Assembly (NCBI RefSeq): GCF_009827395.1
Contig: NZ_WTYX01000002.1
Location: forward strand, 434,001-498,000
DNA from: Pontixanthobacter aquaemixtae
Lineage (GTDB): Bacteria > Pseudomonadota > Alphaproteobacteria > Sphingomonadales > Sphingomonadaceae
Reading direction: 5' to 3'
DNA length: 64,000 bases
Under the pieces are notes generated by a model. It saw nothing but the letters and a program-made list of their open reading frames with translations. It searched no databases and was not told the DNA's origin. Numbering within the stretch: the stretch's first letter is position 1; each line of letters begins with the position of its first letter. Position numbers and translations under genes: made by a program. Below are positions 25,624 through 63,240 of the stretch, piece by piece.

Positions 25624-25896
25624 CTCCATCCTGCAAAGCTGATTTTCGAGTCCGAATCCACGAGGATTCTGGCCCAATTTGCTGCACCCGCGAATGCGAC
25701 TCGCAATTTTGCGCGATTCGTGTTATATAATGTCGCATCCACGTTGGTTTGTACCAATTGCAAGCCGGCGTTGGGCGGATATCTGAAAGGGCGCAGACCA
25801 CTCACCACAGCGCAAAAGAGGTTTCGACCGGACCGCGTGTCCGGCCGCAGGTTAATTTGACTGTTCGGTGGTGTAGCCCGCACGAAAGGACTTTTT
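25624..25896 (+). promoter_or_regulatory. carD leader and promoter region
   Basis: A 273-bp gap between fdxA and carD. A perfect -10 TATAAT occurs at 25726-25731 with no clear -35 at 16-18 bp. The transcript would have a leader of about 160 nt containing a perfect hairpin CCGGAC-CGCGT-GTCCGG (25828-25844). GGTTAATTTGAC lies at 25850-25861 and an AAGGA ribosome binding site precedes the ATG. No ORF or known RNA family is visible. Confidence 0.5.
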
Positions 25897-38231: not shown

Positions 38232-39239
38232 CTAGATATCTCCGCCGGTCAAACGCTGGCAGATCAAGTCTAGCTGATCGAGAGTCCGGTATCGGATTGT
38301 GACCGCGCCCGATCGCGGATCGCTATCGGTTTTGATCTTTACGGGAAGTCCGAGGAATTCCTCCAGATGGCCCTGGACTGCGACGATATCGGCATCTTTC
38401 GCCGGATCGCGTGACGGCCGGGCCTGACGGCGCGTATTATCCGCGTCACTATCACCGCGTTTGGCCAGTTTCTCTACATCTCTGACAGAAAGCTTTGCCG
38501 AAACCGCACGCTTGGCCAGCGCAACCGCATTGTCATGCCCGATTAGCGCACGAGCATGCCCCATCGACAGGCTGCCATCCTCTACCAAATCCAGAACATC
38601 GCCCGGAAGCGCCAAGAGCCGCTGGAAATTGGCAACATGGCTACGCGATTTGTCGACCAGCCGGGCGATCTCTGCCTGAGTCATCGATTCCTGATCGGCC
38701 AACCGTTGATAGGCGCGCGCCTCTTCGACCGGATTGAGATCTTCACGTTGCAAATTTTCAATCAGGGCAAGCGCCATGACCTCGCGATCGTTCAACTCGC
38801 GAACAATCGCCGGAATCTGGTGCAATTGCGCCTTTTGCGCCGCGCGCCAGCGACGCTCGCCGGCCACCAGCTGGTATTTACCCTTTCCGGTCGGGCGCAC
38901 GATGATCGGTTGGATAACTCCGCGTGCCGCAATCGAAGCCGCCAGTTCGTCCAGTGCGGATTCGTCAAATTGCGTTCGCGGCTGACCCGGCAGCGGCTCG
39001 ATCGAGGAAATTGCAAGCGATGCGAGGCCTGTTTGCGCCGCTACATCGCCCGTTTTTTGGGCCGCCTCCAAAGCATCAACTTCGCTTTGCGAACGAACCA
39101 ATGGTTCTTCTTTGCGTGTTTCGCCCATCAGAGCCCCAAGCCCGCGGCCGAGCTTCTTCTTTTTGTCAGCAGCACGCGGGGGAACGGTCAGGCGAATGGG
39201 ATCGCTGGGATCGCCCTTGAGATATGGGGGCTTACTCAT
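38232..39239 (-). CDS. parB: Chromosome partitioning protein ParB
   Basis: CTP-dependent DNA clamp that loads at parS and spreads, segregating the origin. About 335 residues. The N-terminal LGRGLGALMGE motif contacts ParA, the ParB/Srx core has the CTP-binding GERRWRAAQ and ENLQREDLNPVEEA, the helix-turn-helix is MTQAEIARLVDKSRSHVANF, and the C-terminal dimerisation domain follows a basic linker. The start MSKPPYLK (ATG 39239) overlaps parA by 4 bp. Three parS sites lie within 4 kb. Confidence 0.96.
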   Translation of the reverse strand: MSKPPYLKGDPSDPIRLTVPPRAADKKKKLGRGLGALMGETRKEEPLVRSQSEVDALEAAQKTGDVAAQTGLASLAISSIEPLPGQPRTQFDESALDELAASIAARGVIQPIIVRPTGKGKYQLVAGERRWRAAQKAQLHQIPAIVRELNDREVMALALIENLQREDLNPVEEARAYQRLADQESMTQAEIARLVDKSRSHVANFQRLLALPGDVLDLVEDGSLSMGHARALIGHDNAVALAKRAVSAKLSVRDVEKLAKRGDSDADNTRRQARPSRDPAKDADIVAVQGHLEEFLGLPVKIKTDSDPRSGAVTIRYRTLDQLDLICQRLTGGDI

Positions 39240-40012
39240 GCGGCTTTCCTTTTCTCTGGCAGGCGTCCGATCAGCTCGCGGGCCAATGCGATATAGGCGC
39301 GGCTTCCGGCGCAAGAATGGTCATAGACGAGCGCCGGCAGACCATGGCTGGGTGCCTCGGACAGACGGACATTGCGCGGGATGACGGATTCGAAAACGAG
39401 ATCGCCGAGTACTTCGCGAACATCATCGGCGACCTGATCGGTCAAGCGATTGCGGCGATCAAACATGGTCAGAACCACGCCGACAATACCCAAATCGGGA
39501 TTGAAGCGCTGCTGCACCTGTTCGACGGTCTTGAGGAGCTGGCTGAGCCCCTCCAGTGCGAAGAATTCGCATTGCAGCGGAACCATCAGCGTATCTGCCG
39601 CGCCGAGCGCGTTCAGTGTTAACAGACCGAGCGATGGCGGGCAGTCGATAAAACAGATGTCATGGCCCGTATGCGATGCGAGCGCAGAACCGAGACGCGC
39701 GGTACGATCCTCGACCGACACAAGCTCAACTTCGGCGCCGCTCAGATCTACGGTTGCGGGAACAACATCCAATCCGGGAATATTACTCGCCGAAACGCAC
39801 TCTTCCAGCGGGGTCTCATCGACCAACAGATCATAAGAACTGTTCTCTCGGTCGTCGGCGTCGATTCCCATGCCTGTCGAAGCATTTCCCTGCGGATCGA
39901 GATCGATCAACAGCGTTTTCCAACCGGTCGCGGCCATTGCGGTGGCAATATTGATGGCAGTGGTGGTTTTTCCCACTCCGCCCTTTTGGTTGGCAATAGC
40001 GATCGTGATCAT
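39236..40012 (-). CDS. parA: Chromosome partitioning ATPase ParA
   Basis: Deviant Walker ATPase (KGGVGKTTT at about residues 10-18) that drives ParB-parS movement along the nucleoid. 258 residues, with DLDPQGNAS, YDLL, FIDCPPSLGLLTLNAL, and FDRRNRLTDQV, plus the C-terminal VRLSEAPSHGLPAL. It lies downstream of rsmG with a 4-bp start/stop overlap and upstream of parB. The gene order mnmE-mnmG-rsmG-parA-parB is the classic near-origin cluster. Confidence 0.96.
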   Translation of the reverse strand: MITIAIANQKGGVGKTTTAINIATAMAATGWKTLLIDLDPQGNASTGMGIDADDRENSSYDLLVDETPLEECVSASNIPGLDVVPATVDLSGAEVELVSVEDRTARLGSALASHTGHDICFIDCPPSLGLLTLNALGAADTLMVPLQCEFFALEGLSQLLKTVEQVQQRFNPDLGIVGVVLTMFDRRNRLTDQVADDVREVLGDLVFESVIPRNVRLSEAPSHGLPALVYDHSCAGSRAYIALARELIGRLPEKRKAA

Positions 40013-40644
40013 GCTTTCCCTCGTAACCCTTTCGCCAGTTTGCCGACCAATATACCCGCATCATCATCGGTCAAAGACTGTTCCACGTGAAACATCTTCC
40101 GTACCTTTCGCGGCATTTCGGCCAATTCTTGCGCCGCAGACCGGCCTTTGGGCAACACAAAGGTGGTTTGCCCTGTGGAGAATCTTGCGGACAAGTCGAT
40201 GATAGATGGAAGCGGAGCAAACGCTCTCGCCGAGATGACCGAAGCTGGCACAGTTTCCACAAGTTCGAGCCGCGATCCCGCTACTTCGCATTTGGGCAGC
40301 GCCAGTTCGGCGCACATCCGCAAAAGCCAGTCGATTCGCTTCCGCCGCGATTCGACCAGCATTACGGGTCGTTGCGGGCGCATAATCGCGATTACCAAGC
40401 CTGGAAGCCCTGCCCCGCTTCCAAGATCGAGCCACAAGCCTGTTTCACGTGGAACATGTTCGAGCAGCTGGGCGCTATCCGCGATGTGGCGTTGCCAAGC
40501 GATATCCAGCGTTGGCTTTGCAACAAGGTTCTGCCGGGTGTTTTCTTCGCGCAAAGCCGCAACGAAGCGATCGAGCTTCTCGATGGCCTCTGCGTCGCAC
40601 AATGTGCTGACATAGCTGCGGGCGCCGGCCTCGTCGCCGATCAT
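40009..40644 (-). CDS. rsmG: 16S rRNA (guanine527-N7)-methyltransferase RsmG
   Basis: SAM-dependent methyltransferase of 16S rRNA. The 211-residue protein has the GidB signatures [23 protein letters not shown], the SAM loop [17 protein letters not shown], and [15 protein letters not shown]. Two parS sites are embedded in its coding sequence, encoding HVPRE (40441-40456) and FHVEQ (40079-40094); these residues are less conserved than the core. It starts 4 bp inside the mnmG 3' end. Confidence 0.95.
40079..40094. promoter_or_regulatory. parS site within rsmG (site 1)
   Basis: TGTTCCACGTGAAACA matches the ParB-binding consensus TGTTNCACGTGAAACA at all 16 positions. It lies near the 3' end of rsmG, just upstream of parA on the minus strand. 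Confidence 0.92.
40441..40456. promoter_or_regulatory. parS site within rsmG (site 2)
   Basis: TGTTTCACGTGGAACA is the exact reverse complement of site 1, so it too matches the parS consensus. Sites 1 and 2 are inverted relative to each other, 362 bp apart, and both inside rsmG. Confidence 0.92.
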
Positions 40645-42548: not shown

Positions 42549-42564
42549 TGTTTCACGTGAAACA
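42549..42564. promoter_or_regulatory. parS site between mnmG and mnmE (site 3)
   Basis: TGTTTCACGTGAAACA is a perfect 16-bp palindrome and an exact consensus parS. It sits in the intergenic gap, 2 bp beyond the mnmE stop. Confidence 0.95.
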
Positions 42565-48122: not shown

Positions 48123-48575
48123 TCAGAACGGCCTTACCACCACCAAAATCACGATTATTGCCGCGGCAATGCCGGGCACTTCGTTGAGCAAGCGCAGTTT
48201 CTTGCCTTCCAGCGGACGCTCCCCGCGGGCCAGCTTCTTGGCATAGGATGCCATGTAACCATGATAACCGGACAGCAGCAGGACAAACAGCAGCTTCGCA
48301 TGGAACCACCCCTGCAAATGCGCCCCGGTCGCGGACATCAGCGCAAGACCCAGCAACCAGACAATGATGATCGAGGGCAACAATATGATCTTGAGAAGTT
48401 TTTGTTCACGCTCGGCCCAGATTGCTTCTTCAGCCGAACCAGCTTCCGCTTCTTGGTGATAGACAAAGAAGCGCGGGAGCATGAACAGCCCCGCCATCCA
48501 GAAAATGACGAAAATGATATGGCCGGCTTTCAGCCACAGATAAATCGGCGCGAGATATTCCTGCATGGAGCCCAT
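48123..48575 (-). CDS. hemJ: Protoporphyrinogen IX oxidase HemJ
   Basis: Integral membrane oxidase for the last-but-one step of heme synthesis in many alphaproteobacteria. The 150-residue protein has four membrane helices and the conserved histidine in WLKAGHIIFVIFWMAGLF and lysine in HAKLLFVLLLSGYHGY, essential in Acinetobacter and Rhodobacter homologues. It follows hemE by 22 bp (HemE, HemJ in one operon). Internal ATG 48566 is an alternative start. Confidence 0.92.
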   Translation of the reverse strand: MGSMQEYLAPIYLWLKAGHIIFVIFWMAGLFMLPRFFVYHQEAEAGSAEEAIWAEREQKLLKIILLPSIIIVWLLGLALMSATGAHLQGWFHAKLLFVLLLSGYHGYMASYAKKLARGERPLEGKKLRLLNEVPGIAAAIIVILVVVRPF

Positions 48576-48597
48576 TTAGGGATTGGAATCGCGAAAG

Positions 48598-49623
48598 TCA
48601 TCCCGCCCAGTTGCGGACTGTCGCCACCAATTGTTCGACATTGGCAATCGGCGTGTGCTGCCCGATACCATGCCCCAGATTGAAAATATGCGGCCGGTCC
48701 GCAAAAACTTCGAGAATGCGCTGCACCGCCTGATCGAGCGCGTTTCCGCCCGACAACAGCATCAAGGGATCAAGATTGCCCTGGACCGGCAACTCTTTGG
48801 GTAGGACCTTGGCTGCCCATAGCGGATCGACCGTTTCATCAAGACCGGCGCCGGATACATCCGTCTCGCGCATGTAAGCAGGCAATTTCTCGCCCGCACC
48901 TTTGGGAAAGCCGATAATGGGAACATCTGGGTGTAATTCGCGCAATTGAGCAACGATGCGGGCGTTGGGCGCAATGACCCAGCGTTCAAATTCGCTCGGC
49001 GCCAAGGTTCCCGACCAACTGTCGAACAATTGCACCGCTTCCGCGCCTGCCTTGATCTGGCCGCTCAGATATTCAACCGTCAGCTGTGCAATCGCATCGA
49101 TGATAGCGCCAAAGGCATCTGGGTCACGATAGGCCATTGCGCGCGTTTCATGCTGGTCGCGGCTGCCCTCGCCTGCGGTCATATAGGTCGCCACGGTCCA
49201 CGGCGATCCTGCAAAGCCCAGCAAGGTCGTTTCCGGGCCGAGTCCCGCCTTCACCTTGGCCACGGTGTCATAAATCGGGGAAAGGCGCTGTGGCACCGCT
49301 TCAAGGCTTCCCAGCGCATGATCCACCAGCTTAGGGGAAAGCTTCGGCCCCTCTCCAGCCAAGAATTCGAGTTTCTGACCCATCGCATAGGGAATAATCA
49401 GAATGTCGGAGAACAAAATTGCGCCATCAAATCCAAACCGCCGGATCGGTTGCAGAGTCACCTCTGCGGCGGCATCGCTGTCATAAACCAGTTCGAGAAA
49501 ACCGCCTTTGTCGGCGCGTAATTCGCGGTATTCGGGCAAGTACCGGCCAGCCTGGCGCATGAGCCAAAGCGGGACCTTGTCAGCACGTTTACCGTGCAAC
49601 GTATCGAGTAGAATTCCGGGCAT
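48598..49623 (-). CDS. hemE: Uroporphyrinogen decarboxylase
   Basis: Decarboxylates the four acetate groups of uroporphyrinogen III to give coproporphyrinogen III. 341 residues with the signatures WLMRQAGRYLPEYRELRA, FSDILIIPYAMGQ, GFAGSPWTVATYM, and FNLGHGIGQHTPIANVEQL. It is transcribed away from the putative origin; its ATG lies about 15 bp from the AT-rich stretch. hemE beside oriC is the known arrangement in Caulobacter and Rickettsia. Confidence 0.96.
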   Translation of the reverse strand: MPGILLDTLHGKRADKVPLWLMRQAGRYLPEYRELRADKGGFLELVYDSDAAAEVTLQPIRRFGFDGAILFSDILIIPYAMGQKLEFLAGEGPKLSPKLVDHALGSLEAVPQRLSPIYDTVAKVKAGLGPETTLLGFAGSPWTVATYMTAGEGSRDQHETRAMAYRDPDAFGAIIDAIAQLTVEYLSGQIKAGAEAVQLFDSWSGTLAPSEFERWVIAPNARIVAQLRELHPDVPIIGFPKGAGEKLPAYMRETDVSGAGLDETVDPLWAAKVLPKELPVQGNLDPLMLLSGGNALDQAVQRILEVFADRPHIFNLGHGIGQHTPIANVEQLVATVRNWAG

Positions 49624-49952
49624 CGAGCGGCCTCTTACTAAATAATATTATATTATAAATAGGATGATGGTGTTTGTTGGCCCTGTGGATTTCGGGGATG
49701 GCGCGCCCTTGCCTGACTTCTCCTGCAATGAACAGCATTTTGGGCAGAGCGAATCTGCATGAATGCTGAGTCGAGTCTTTCTTTTCCTCACTATCACCAG
49801 CCTGTCGAAAAGCGGGTCTGCTTGTCCATAAAGGGACTCGGCAAGGGCTGGGATTGGGCATGGAATCGGCCCCCTCACTTGTCGCCAGCTTTGTCCCGTG
49901 GTTTATGCCGGTAACTGTCCACAGCCAAATATGACCGGAATCCTCTACAGAT
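49624..49952. other. Putative chromosomal replication origin (oriC)
   Basis: A 329-bp non-coding gap between divergent hemE and ppsR, the Caulobacter Cori locus by synteny. Contents: an AT-rich tract (about 49636-49662, A/T except few bases) fit for a DNA-unwinding element; three 9-mers one or two bases off the DnaA box at 49684-49692 (TGTGGATTT), 49822-49830 (TTGTCCATA) and 49915-49923 (CTGTCCACA), each 7/9; and six GANTC sites. Genes on both sides point outward. No TTAA-N7-TTAA CtrA box was found here, unlike Caulobacter. Confidence 0.8.
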
Positions 49953-50798
49953 ATGAGCCGTCTGCATCTTCATCTCGTATCGGATTCGACCGGTGAAACA
50001 CTCGAAATGGTCGCCAAGGCTGCTCTCGCCCAGTTCGAGGATGCCGACATCGTTCGGCATTTCTGGCCAATGGTACGGTCCAAACAGCATCTTGACCGGA
50101 TTGTTCCCGAACTTGCTGCTAATCCGGGCTTGGTTCTGTTTACGCTCGTCAATCCCGATACGCGCGGGCGGCTGGAAGATCACTGCCGGCAGCTCAGCCT
50201 GCCTTCAGTGCCGGCAATCGATGCGGTGACCGAGGCGCTTGAAGAACAGCTCGGGCAGGAAGCGCATGGCCGCCCCGGCCGCCAGCACTTGATGGACGAT
50301 GCCTATTTCAAGCGGGTCGATGCGATTCACTATACGATCGCGCATGATGACGGGATCGGATGGGAGAATTGGGAAGAAGCCGATATTGTCCTGGCAGGCG
50401 TATCGCGTTCCTCCAAAACCCCGACCAGCATCTATCTCGCCAATCGCGGCTATAAGACAGCCAATATTCCGCTGGTTATCGAAAGCCCGCCGCCGGAGAT
50501 TCTCTACAAGTTGGAAAACCCGCTGGTGGTTGGTTTGACCACAGCGCCCGAAAGACTTGTCCAGATCCGGCGAAACCGTTTGCTCAGCCTCAACGAGCAA
50601 GCCGAGACATCCTATATCGATGACGAGCGCGTGCGCGAGGAAGTGAAATTCGCCCGGCGCATGTTTGCCGATAATGGCTGGCCAGTGATCGATGTGACGC
50701 GCCGCTCGATTGAGGAAACCGCTGCTGCTGTCATCAATCTGGTGGGCGAACGCGATCGCCGCGAAATTCCGCCGCGCATCGGGCCCAAACCGATATGA
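49953..50798 (+). CDS. ppsR: Pyruvate, water dikinase regulatory protein (DUF299 kinase-pyrophosphorylase)
   Basis: Bifunctional enzyme that phosphorylates (inactivates) and dephosphorylates PEP synthase or pyruvate phosphate dikinase. 281 residues with HLVSDSTGETLEMVAKA, the P-loop-like GVSRSSKTPTSIYLANRG, and LVVGLTTAPERLVQIRRNRL. It is the first rightward gene from the origin, equal to Caulobacter CC0001. It overlaps maf by 4 bp. Confidence 0.94.
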   Translation: MSRLHLHLVSDSTGETLEMVAKAALAQFEDADIVRHFWPMVRSKQHLDRIVPELAANPGLVLFTLVNPDTRGRLEDHCRQLSLPSVPAIDAVTEALEEQLGQEAHGRPGRQHLMDDAYFKRVDAIHYTIAHDDGIGWENWEEADIVLAGVSRSSKTPTSIYLANRGYKTANIPLVIESPPPEILYKLENPLVVGLTTAPERLVQIRRNRLLSLNEQAETSYIDDERVREEVKFARRMFADNGWPVIDVTRRSIEETAAAVINLVGERDRREIPPRIGPKPI

Positions 50799-51382
50799 CA
50801 CTCATACTCGCTTCAAAAAGCGCGTCGCGGCGGGCCATGCTCGATGCGGCGGGGGTTCATTATGAATCCATGCCCGCCGAGATTGATGAGCGCGCGGTTG
50901 AAAAGAGTCTGTCGGGAGAAAAGCCCGGCGAAATTGCTCGCGCGCTTGGAGTCGCAAAAGCAAGGGCTGTGTCGCTGTTAGAGCCTCACTCATTGGTCCT
51001 CGGCAGCGACTCGCTGGTCGTGTGCGACGGCGAGCGCTTTGACAAACCTGCGAGCCGTGACGCTGCGGTGGATCACCTTCGCTTCTTTTCGGGCAAGGTG
51101 ATGGAATTGCACAGCGGTGCCGCTTTGGTGCGGGACGGCGAAGTGCTGTGGACGGGCACAGCCATGGCATCGCTGCATGTTCGCGAATTGTCGGACGCAT
51201 TTATCCAAAACTATCTTGATGTAGAATGGCCGGCGGTGGCAGGCTGCGTTGGTGTGTTTCGGATTGAAGCGATTGGCGTGCAATTGTTCGAGCGTATTGA
51301 AGGCGACCAGTTCACTGTCTTGGGAATGCCTTTGCTTCCCGTCTTGGCGGCGCTGCGCGAATTGGGCGAGCTTCCTGAATGA
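50795..51382 (+). CDS. maf: Maf family nucleoside triphosphate pyrophosphatase
   Basis: Hydrolyses non-canonical or UTP/dTTP nucleotides to monophosphates. The 195-residue protein starts MTLILASKSASRRAMLDAAG and has IDERAVE, VLGSDSLVVCDGERFDKPAS, and WPAVAGCVGVFRIEAIGVQLFERIEGDQFTVLGMP. The VLGSDSLV variant resembles the YceF branch. It is translationally coupled to ppsR and aroE by 4-bp overlaps. Confidence 0.93.
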   Translation: MTLILASKSASRRAMLDAAGVHYESMPAEIDERAVEKSLSGEKPGEIARALGVAKARAVSLLEPHSLVLGSDSLVVCDGERFDKPASRDAAVDHLRFFSGKVMELHSGAALVRDGEVLWTGTAMASLHVRELSDAFIQNYLDVEWPAVAGCVGVFRIEAIGVQLFERIEGDQFTVLGMPLLPVLAALRELGELPE

Positions 51383-53579: not shown

Positions 53580-53582
53580 TCC

Positions 53583-53595
53583 GGGGCGCTGCCCC
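53583..53595 (+). other. Short GC hairpin between dnaQ and hpf
   Basis: GGGGC-GCT-GCCCC, a 5-bp perfect stem with 3-nt loop, 3 bp after the dnaQ stop and 21 bp before the hpf ATG (AAGGAGAAGG at 53602). No U-tract follows, so it may be a processing or attenuator element rather than a terminator. Confidence 0.35.
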
Positions 53596-53616
53596 AATAT
53601 AAGGAGAAGGTCGACT

Positions 53617-54198
53617 ATGGATATTCGCGTTTCAGGCCATCAAGTGGAAACCGGTGCAGCACTTCAGGAACATGTAGCGGATCGTCTGAACGGAGTAGTC
53701 GAGAAATATTTTAGTCGAGCGATCTCCTCGCATGTGACTTTCGGCAAGGCACCCGCCGGCGCTTTCAGCTGCGATATTGTGACGCATGTTATGCAAGGGA
53801 TGATCATTAAAGGTCATGCCGAAGCGCATGATGCGCATCAGGCCTTGGACAAGGCATCAACCAAGATCGAAACGCAATTGCGCCGCTACAAACGGCGTCT
53901 CAAGGACCGGCACGAACAAGCCGATCACGCCGCGCGCGAGGAAGAAGCGGCATATACGATCTTTGCCGGCTCGGCCCCTGAGACGGAGGAGCCCGAGATT
54001 GAAGAAAGCGGCGATTTTGCGCCGATGGTCATTGCGGAAACCAAAGTGGACATTCCCGAAGCCAGTGTTGCCGATGCGGTGATGATGCTCGACCTGCGCG
54101 ATACAAATGCGATGTTCTTTAAAAATGCTGGCTCTGGACGGCATAATATGGTTTATCGCCGCCGAGACGGTTCGATCGGGTGGGTTGAGCCTCATTAA
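53617..54198 (+). CDS. hpf: Ribosome hibernation promoting factor, long form
   Basis: Forms 100S inactive ribosome dimers in stationary phase. The 193-residue protein has an N-terminal HPF/YfiA domain (MDIRVSGHQVETGAALQEHV, VTFGKAP, DAHQALDKASTKIETQLRRYKRRLKDRHEQ) and a C-terminal dimerisation domain (VADAVMMLDLRDTNAMFFKNAGSGR). Long HPF is usual in alphaproteobacteria. ATG 53617 has AAGGAGAAGG upstream. ptsN follows, as in many genomes. Confidence 0.95.
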   Translation: MDIRVSGHQVETGAALQEHVADRLNGVVEKYFSRAISSHVTFGKAPAGAFSCDIVTHVMQGMIIKGHAEAHDAHQALDKASTKIETQLRRYKRRLKDRHEQADHAAREEEAAYTIFAGSAPETEEPEIEESGDFAPMVIAETKVDIPEASVADAVMMLDLRDTNAMFFKNAGSGRHNMVYRRRDGSIGWVEPH

Positions 54199-61734: not shown

Positions 61735-63240
61735 TTATTGACCGCTGTCTGATTCGACCTGTGTCGCCTCTGTTGCGGGAATGTCTGCGTCAGGAGCAGG
61801 AATGTCAACGGTGCGTGTCGAAACCGCGACCGGATCAGGGTCACGGTCCCAATCCCAGAACTTGTCCTTAACGCGGTCAAAATTGACTGTCGGATCGTAA
61901 AGCAGACCCTCGCCATCGAGACCCAGATCACGAGCTTCAGCGCGGCCCATCGCAGCCAGTAGGCTGAAGCCGGCAACATAGGCATTGCGGCGGGCTGTGA
62001 CCAATTGGACACGCGCAGCCAACAATTCCTGTTCAGCGTTGAGCACATCAAGAATGGTGCGGTTGCCGATCGAGTTTTCGGCGCGGGTTCCTTCGAGGCT
62101 CAGTTCAGCGGCAGCCACCGCCGTTCGTGAACTTTCGATAATCGCATTGGCCGCCTGCCAGCTGGAGTAAGCAGCGCGGACTTGGGCGATGACGTCGCGC
62201 TCGGCAGCGATCACTTGTTCAAACGCAGCGCTGGCACGCGCGCTGGCTTGCCGCTGCAAGGCGGCGGGCCGTCCACCCTGAAAAATCGGGATGCTCAGCC
62301 GCACGCCGGCTTGCGCGCCGGTGGCGGTTTGCGCGCTCGGCACGGTCGGGCCGTTCGGATCGTTGGGATCTACCGGAATATCGGGGACGCTACCGAGGAA
62401 ATTCTGGTAATTGTAGCGCGTGAACAGGCTGACAGTGGGCAGCCGACCTGCGCCTGCGACATCCACATCATATCCGGCAGCTTCTGCGCGCTCCTTGGCG
62501 GCAATCAGATCGGGGTTGTTTTCTAAAGCGAAAAATACCGCTTCTTGCGCCGTGTCGGGAAGGCCGGGCAATGGCGGAGGCGGCTGCAGATCATCAGGCG
62601 CTGATCCGACCAGACGGATATAGGTTTCGCGCGCTGAAATTAGATTGGCCTGTGCAGAGCGCAAATCGCTTTGGGACACGGCCAGCCGCGACTGAGATTG
62701 CGCAATATCGGTGCGGGTCAAATCACCAATTTCGAAGCGATCCTCGGTGGCCTGTAGGTTGACCGAGAGAACATCTACCTGATTGGCCGACAAGGCAACG
62801 ATCGCCTCGTTGCGGATCACGTCCATATAGGCTGCAACGACCTGGCTGAAAATTGCCGATTCGGTTCCGCGCAAATCCGCTCGACCCGCTTCGACACGCT
62901 CTTTCGCGGCGCGAATTCCGTTCTTGACCGAGCCGCCCAAATAAATCGGCACACCCAGATCGACATCGGCGTTGAGCACGCGGTTCGGCGTAAAGAAACT
63001 GGTCGAATTCTGCTTGAGAAATTCTGTCTGTGTAACCGTACTGCTGACACTGGGCAGTCCGCTGGCCTTCTGGATCGGCACATTCTCATCGGTAGCGCGC
63101 TGGTTTGCCCGCGCAGCCTGCAGCGTCGGATTGGTCTGGTACGCCTCAACCAAGGCTTCGCGCAGCGTATCTGCATAAGCGGGGGTAGCGACAATTGCCG
63201 CACCGGCGAGCAGCGCCAATTTGCCGAACCGCTTTGACAT
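61735..63240 (-). CDS. tolC: TolC family outer membrane channel protein
   Basis: Trimeric outer-membrane efflux or type I secretion channel. About 501 residues with a signal peptide (LALLAGAAIVATPAYA), DTLREALVEAYQTNPTLQAARANQRA, two repeated coiled-coil regions, GVPIYLGGSVKNGIRAAK and the IPIFQGGRPAALQRQA second-half equivalent, and a Pro/Ala-rich C-tail. No partner ABC transporter is in the window. The start ATG 63240 lies 4 bp after the PIMT-like stop, so the two are likely one operon. Confidence 0.93.
   Translation of the reverse strand: MSKRFGKLALLAGAAIVATPAYADTLREALVEAYQTNPTLQAARANQRATDENVPIQKASGLPSVSSTVTQTEFLKQNSTSFFTPNRVLNADVDLGVPIYLGGSVKNGIRAAKERVEAGRADLRGTESAIFSQVVAAYMDVIRNEAIVALSANQVDVLSVNLQATEDRFEIGDLTRTDIAQSQSRLAVSQSDLRSAQANLISARETYIRLVGSAPDDLQPPPPLPGLPDTAQEAVFFALENNPDLIAAKERAEAAGYDVDVAGAGRLPTVSLFTRYNYQNFLGSVPDIPVDPNDPNGPTVPSAQTATGAQAGVRLSIPIFQGGRPAALQRQASARASAAFEQVIAAERDVIAQVRAAYSSWQAANAIIESSRTAVAAAELSLEGTRAENSIGNRTILDVLNAEQELLAARVQLVTARRNAYVAGFSLLAAMGRAEARDLGLDGEGLLYDPTVNFDRVKDKFWDWDRDPDPVAVSTRTVDIPAPDADIPATEATQVESDSGQ

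Follow-up and report, generated by a model that had tools for sequence, protein, structure and literature searches.

The hemE–ppsR intergenic region as the probable chromosomal replication origin of an Erythrobacter-like alphaproteobacterium

Where does chromosome replication start in an Erythrobacter-like sphingomonad, and which elements may open the DNA and time the event? In the Alphaproteobacteria, Cori of Caulobacter was the sole origin identified by experiment as of a 2007 paper, according to which hemE and COG1806 (ppsR) bound the origins of Caulobacter and Rickettsia (PMC1914354). For most Sphingomonadaceae, Sphingopyxis granuli TFA among them, origins near hemE have been predicted in DoriC (PMC4741004). 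We analyzed a 64,000-bp stretch (the window; C2:434001–498000) of a 2.98-Mb genome that is available in three contigs, and conclude with a probability of roughly 0.94 that a 329-bp gap between hemE and ppsR is the chromosomal oriC of this Erythrobacter-like (sphingomonad) alphaproteobacterium. This places the origin of an Erythrobacter-like genome at a location already predicted for Sphingomonadaceae; a strikingly conserved methylation site in it could link replication to the cell cycle. The locus comprises the following elements.

49624–49952, no strand assigned: hemE/ppsR intergenic gap, 329 bp, the oriC candidate (C2:483.6–484.0 kb)
48598–49623, minus strand: hemE, uroporphyrinogen decarboxylase, left boundary gene (TIGR01464, 384 bits)
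49953–50798, plus strand: ppsR, DUF299 kinase-pyrophosphorylase (PPDK/PEP-synthase regulator), right boundary gene

The gene coordinates and the hemE family match confirm the preliminary description of a 329-bp gap between divergent hemE and ppsR with genes pointing outward on both sides: hemE, a UPF0093 gene, and rho lie on the minus strand to the left, and ppsR, maf, aroE, coaE, and the gene of a DnaQ-like exonuclease on the plus strand to the right. Its statement that the same genes flank Cori in Caulobacter crescentus agrees with the published boundaries (PMC1914354). The closest PpsR proteins among the 80 kept loci, a set from which near copies of the window's own genome are perhaps absent, come from Pontixanthobacter (L048, 96%; L049, 93%) and other Erythrobacter-like sphingomonads. 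The order hemE–gap–ppsR is retained in 79 of these 80 related loci. It was also found in 56 of 60 genomes from across the class, the other four being without a hemE match in the piece; these 60 were picked among the matches listed (240 of 372 genomes matched), and nearly all are of different families, with one from the window's own. The gap has a GC content of 0.50 compared with 0.54–0.64 in 2-kb bins of the window, which agrees with the AT content used as an origin criterion.

GC skew was evaluated in 1.254 Mb (1,254,000 bp, 42%) of the genome, sampled in stretches, by a two-arm change-point fit that treats C2 and C1 as one circle. The best fit places the origin at C2:495 kb (bootstrap median 485 kb, quartiles 455–495 kb, 5–95% range 225–510 kb), with a score of 2.76 versus a maximum of 1.40 among 500 permutations. 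The preliminary description had named a skew minimum far from 49.6–50 kb as evidence against an origin here, and no such displacement was found in this 42% of the genome. The skew is weak and therefore places the origin to some tens of kb at best; in a coarser fit the 480-kb bin (1.649) and the 500-kb bin (1.656) nearly tie, and within the window the cumulative minimum lies at 61957, the position around 50 kb being merely a local dip. The fitted terminus at about C1:1.12 Mb yields arms of 1.71 and 1.27 Mb and rests on the skew, since no dif was found: a dif-like pattern gave two matches with three mismatches, which were rejected because the reversed control gave nine. Fits to ∼0.42 Mb sampled from each of two relatives placed the origin at 2675 kb (5–95% range 2330–2678 kb) in the single-contig genome of E. 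rubeus, where the gap lies at 2676.7 kb, and at 2725 kb (quartiles 2670–2725 kb, 5–95% range spanning 0–3095 kb) in NAP1, 48 kb off its gap at 2677 kb.

The partition locus lies to the left of the gap.

40079–40094, no strand assigned: perfect parS
40441–40456, no strand assigned: perfect parS
42549–42564, no strand assigned: perfect parS
39236–40012, minus strand: ParA-like partition ATPase, adjoining gidB–gidA–mnmE (family matches below curated cut-offs)

These three perfect parS sites (C2:474.1–476.6 kb) are found 7.1–9.5 kb from the gap and nowhere else in the genome; at up to two mismatches, the pattern otherwise occurs in five places, each with two, compared with ten for the reversed control. 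Among the 79 gap-bearing relatives, 62 of the fetched loci contain parS (61 of the 68 that extend at least 9.5 kb upstream), and in all four relatives' genomes searched every perfect parS lies at most 10 kb from the gap. The dnaA gene is located at C2:814 kb, 330 kb from the gap and off the skew change-point; dnaA is reported not to be retained near the origin in Sphingomonadales (PMC8116508). It encodes a full-length DnaA (TIGR00362, 473 bits), whose domain IV aligns through GGRDHSTVIHA with the solved DnaA 8btg.

The gap itself is densely occupied by weak DnaA-like boxes.

49684–49692, minus strand: DnaA box AAATCCACA, 2 mismatches (1–2 mismatches in 79/79 relatives)
49782–49790, plus strand: DnaA-like box TTTTCCTCA (at most 2 mismatches in 48/79 relatives)
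49803–49811, minus strand: DnaA-like box TTTTCGACA (at most 2 mismatches in 34/79 relatives)
49822–49831, both strands: overlapping DnaA-like boxes TTGTCCATA (49822, plus) and TTATGGACA (49823, minus), weakly conserved (at most 2 mismatches in 14/79 and 26/79 relatives)
49915–49923, plus strand: DnaA-like box CTGTCCACA (at most 2 mismatches in 69/79 relatives; 5 rows too short)

All six 9-mers carry two mismatches to TTATCCACA, and no 9-mer of the gap matches it with zero or one. The preliminary description had rightly noted that perfect boxes are absent and that boxes matching at 7 of 9 bases are present, but its count of three was too low. In 300 first-order Markov simulations of the gap the mean was 0.83 DnaA-like boxes and none reached six. 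Six boxes in 329 bp occur nowhere else in the 1.254-Mb sample, and five are reached by seven clusters including the gap. According to the alignment of relatives, only two of the six boxes are well conserved. Cori likewise relies on weak DnaA boxes (PMC4468827). Perfect copies of TTATCCACA number four in 2.98 Mb, none of them on C2, versus 12 for the reversed pattern, and may be avoided in this genome.

The best conserved of these boxes, at 49684, borders a candidate unwinding module of ∼55 bp (49639–49692).

49639–49661, no strand assigned: AT-rich tract, 23/23 A/T, putative duplex unwinding element
49651–49668, plus strand: six consecutive 3′-NAN-5′ DnaA-trio-like triplets, TAG TAG GAT AAA TAT TAT read 3′ to 5′ (criteria of PMC8287927)
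49669–49683, plus strand: 15-nt spacer between box and trios
49676–49689: conserved core GTTGGNCCTGTGGA, in 76/79 relatives

The AT-rich tract that had been placed at about 49636–49662 is thus real. An all-A/T run of 21 nt is unique to the gap in the 1,254,000 sampled bp, and all 80 rows of the family alignment contain a 21-mer with at least 18 A/T within the first 60 nt of the gap. In the minus-strand direction, the 15-nt spacer comes directly after the 49684 box, and beyond it six triplets, the complement of which reads 3′-NAN-5′, lead into the AT tract. The published BUS search rule asks for a box with at most two mismatches, a spacer of 0–16 nt, and at least three NAN trios (PMC8287927), and this arrangement falls within it. 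Of the 2097 boxes in the sample, 5 have six or more triplets behind them, so the run by itself is no proof. We also scored box, GAT-like triplets, and AT content together against shuffled gaps, with the score and the 150- and 160-bp cut-offs chosen after the gaps had been seen. In 79 of the 80 rows of the family, the module scored above shuffles (p ≤ 0.05, 20 shuffles each) with its strand and position retained.

Similar signals were found beyond the family. In the 56 class gaps, the module score exceeded shuffles (p ≤ 0.05, 60 shuffles each) in 37, and the best match lay on the expected strand in 42 and on the opposite strand in 14; 28 had it on the expected strand within 160 bp of hemE, compared with 10.0 expected. 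A matrix built from the family core performed better than shuffles in 27 of the 56 and gave its best match on the expected strand within 150 bp in 22 (9.9 expected). These comparisons suggest that origins across much of the Alphaproteobacteria may share a box/trio/AT module on their hemE side. The exact core GTTGGNCCTGTGGA occurs in 25 of 385 class genomes, of which only six show it next to hemE in the proper arrangement (the own genome and L148, L149, and L150 of the same family, and L135 and L146 outside it). The core in L147 was dropped: despite a nearby hemE, ppsR is ∼3 kb away and no AT tract adjoins the core; the other 18 core-bearing genomes showed no hemE match in the fetched piece (up to 3 kb). 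The exact core is not universal even within the family, since L196 is without it. This genome keeps hemE–gap–ppsR and has neither core nor the GANTC composite described below; its origin may be built differently.

From the module we consider BUS-type opening at the gap likely. DnaA would bind the conserved 49684 box, helped by the weaker boxes at 49782–49831 and 49915, and a DnaA filament would then extend over the 3′-GAT-5′-like trios of the plus strand (49651–49668). The AT tract (49639–49661) would be opened and the helicase loaded there, from where the left fork would proceed through hemE–rho–mnmE/gidA–parS and the right fork through ppsR–maf–aroE–coaE–dnaQ. DnaA-trio predictions have been published for 1755 of 2070 species (PMC8287927) and may already cover the module, for which we claim no priority. 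The preliminary description, which was correct in location, had overlooked the trio/BUS module, half of the boxes, and a cluster of GANTC (CcrM) sites.

49750–49755, minus strand: GANTC (49751–49755) within CGAATC on plus, equal to GATTCG (GAKTCG) on minus (79/79 relatives)
49770–49774, minus strand: −35-like T[TC]GAC (GTC and A at 49774 fixed in 80/80 rows, 49773 A or G in 77/80)
49768–49777, no strand assigned: two adjoining GANTC (49768–49772 in 37/79, 49773–49777 in 26/79 relatives)
49835–49839, no strand assigned: GANTC, kept in 2/79 relatives
49863–49867, no strand assigned: GANTC, kept in 19/79 relatives
49938–49942, no strand assigned: GANTC, kept in 0/79 relatives

The six GANTC sites of the gap compare with a sample mean of 0.53 per 329 bp, a count of six being reached in five places including the gap, and with 1.14 per 329 bp on average in the other intergenic DNA of the genome. 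In the relatives, the gap carries 4.53 sites per 329 bp versus 0.74 in other intergenic and 0.73 in coding DNA of the same loci. The intergenic controls come from a crude gene caller, which called a false ORF over part of the gap; another stretch called non-coding, 53580–53856, can be aligned in almost the same number of relatives (mean 73.5 versus 77.8 loci). All 80 rows share the four defined bases (G, A, T, and C) of the site at 49751; its N is C in 46 rows and A in 34, and 79 rows have the preceding C. Neighboring columns (e.g. 49745–49748 and 49756–49766) vary freely, so shared ancestry alone does not explain the invariant site. With N limited to A or C and preceded by C, the site reads GAKTCG on the minus strand, which is the core of YGAKTCG, the motif of GcrA (PMC7987155, where the extended motif was reported as not recovered in Brevundimonas); the Y is not conserved at this site in the 80 rows. 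A second stretch, TGAGTCG at 49767–49773, fits YGAKTCG.

Together with the −35-like element, the invariant site forms a composite, T[TC]GAC-N13/14-GAKTCG, which is found on the minus strand, facing hemE, in 76 of the 80 rows (N14 in 58, N13 in 18). It is absent from L048, L059, L060, and L076, among which is the nearest relative. The N14 form occurs once in the 1.254-Mb sample, at the gap, and the looser form 11 times in 4000 shuffled gaps. Three more family loci (L148, L149, and L150) carry the composite, whereas none of the 56 class gaps does on either strand, making it a family feature. The composite resembles a GcrA-type promoter, without a recognized −10 element. A CcrM-type methyltransferase with a RAMA domain (C1:468.6 kb) and a GcrA-family protein (C1:1863 kb) are both encoded. 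The literature covered on Erythrobacter oriC, DnaA-trios, and CcrM/GcrA, to which subscription papers mostly do not belong, yielded no description of the invariant GANTC or the composite.

In the class gaps, GANTC is 1.35-fold enriched over shuffles (157 versus a mean of 117 and a maximum of 148 among 200), but ACNGT (1.44-fold) and GCNGC (1.38-fold) are enriched as much, so that only the excess in the family is strong. Within the box–trio spacer, column 49670 carries a GANTC in 59 of 79 relatives that is absent from the window; methylation at this column could affect how DnaA binds the opened strand. In 8 of the 56 class gaps (L198, L206, L213, L214, L217, L225, L250, and L252), GANTC lies 0–3 nt before the hemE-proximal CTGTG box end, compared with at most two for other palindromic 5-mers, which may partly reflect a second DnaA box.

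What might the conserved GANTC do? Timing of initiation would be set by the weak boxes and possibly by CcrM methylation of conserved GANTC sites, in place of CtrA. A more specific proposal, which we hold tentatively and judge rather unlikely as a whole, is that the origin of this family takes its cell-cycle input from DNA methylation and not from CtrA. The invariant CcrM site, 13–14 nt behind the −35-like element, would then belong to a promoter within oriC that depends on GcrA and becomes active when the methylation state of the site changes upon replication. Transcription from it would run across the unwinding module toward hemE and would tie transcription at the origin, and with it re-initiation, to the CcrM cycle. 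If true, a DnaA-dependent origin would use GcrA/CcrM components for a Dam/SeqA-like logic. GANTC 49751–49755 is the single site that bears on whether methylation times initiation where a DnaA origin has no CtrA sites. A timed promoter class of Caulobacter is marked by GANTC lying between −10 and −35, and transcription that starts at a promoter within Cori is described as essential (PMC4287350).

We give somewhat better than even chances to a rival account, in which the gap is the origin and the GANTC cluster and composite serve transcription of hemE or ppsR only, with no role in replication timing. GANTC is enriched intergenically in most alphaproteobacterial chromosomes (PMC8116508), and in Caulobacter, loss of CcrM is reported to leave initiation control undisturbed, with a wild type–like DNA content profile in cells without ccrM (PMC3973325). 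The six-fold excess of GANTC relative to the remaining intergenic sequence in the relatives' loci argues against this account, as do the extra chromosome copies caused by CcrM overexpression in Caulobacter (cited in PMC3973325). Transcription of hemE at Cori is called important for replication (PMC8959179), so roles in transcription and timing need not be separate.

Far less probable is that the gap is a divergent promoter region only and that replication truly starts elsewhere nearby (e.g. next to parA/gidAB) or close to dnaA. Positions within some tens of kb of each other are not resolved by skew alone, and besides the T[TC]GAC-N14-GAKTCG composite one further element looks promoter-like.

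49879–49907, plus strand: conserved non-coding block, TTGTCG-N17-TTTATG, possible ppsR promoter

This block (49879–49909 in a slightly longer delimitation) lies ∼45–75 bp before ppsR and contains CCGTGGTTTATG in 56 of 79 relatives; a scan of 49500–50060 for sigma-70 promoter and terminator consensus sequences and an Rfam search of 48500–51000 returned no hits. A promoter region alone would leave unexplained the box density and AT run that are unique in the sampled genome, and a module whose strand and position are retained in 79 of the 80 rows of the family; dnaA, 330 kb off, lies away from the skew change-point. The proposal of a candidate chromosomal origin at the gap is supported by the skew change-point, parS, the boundary genes, the dense weak boxes, and the unique AT tract.

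A Caulobacter-type origin switched off by CtrA has a negligible probability; identical boundary genes (PMC1914354) are set against the absence of TTAA-N7-TTAA from the gap and from 79 of 79 relatives and against a loss of ctrA without growth effect in Sphingomonas melonis (cited in PMC8116508).

Read as oriC, the gap is not a copy of Cori. Both share boundary genes, an AT-rich region, low-affinity DnaA boxes, and several GANTC (PMC1914354, PMC4468827, PMC3973325), and parS is close in both (within 8 kb at Cori, 7.1–9.5 kb at the gap). In contrast to Cori with its five CtrA sites, the gap has none, as the preliminary description had stated when calling it unlike Cori in detail; it has no near-perfect DnaA box and is even devoid of TTAA, at least one of which occurs in 32 of 79 relatives. 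It also lacks an IHF consensus: the loose form WATCAN5WTR, absent from the gap, occurs in 15 of 79 relatives and a stricter form in none of the 79. An IHF site is a listed oriC criterion, although not all criteria are required according to the authors (PMC1914354). A further difference is the GANTC-bearing composite pointing to hemE.

The gap agrees with the oriC regions of Sphingomonadaceae in DoriC in its location and in the conserved putative DnaA boxes and unwinding element within intergenic DNA, whereas the accessible account of those regions describes no trio/BUS module, CcrM site, or composite (PMC4741004). Similar to the Bacillus subtilis BUS, it follows the box/spacer/trio rule with triplets on the complementary strand and AT-rich DNA beyond (PMC8287927, PMC6669920), but it has one clear box beside the trios, and its unwinding is putative. 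GANTC within an origin is also known from the CcrM-sensitive ori2 (RepABC) of Agrobacterium tumefaciens, whose authors propose that hemimethylation limits re-firing and liken this to Dam/SeqA (PMC11514494). Unlike the gap, ori2 is a RepC-dependent secondary origin and not of the DnaA/hemE type, and the GcrA target there is the repABC operon.

Dense GANTC clusters were also seen elsewhere in the genome. The highest intergenic count in the sample, ten sites in 581 bp (L191 13158–13738; C2:753158–753738), lies upstream of a ribonucleotide reductase-like gene, and a 228-bp gap of the window (25624–25851) between ferredoxin-like and CarD-like genes contains five, both sets of neighbors being assigned by eye.
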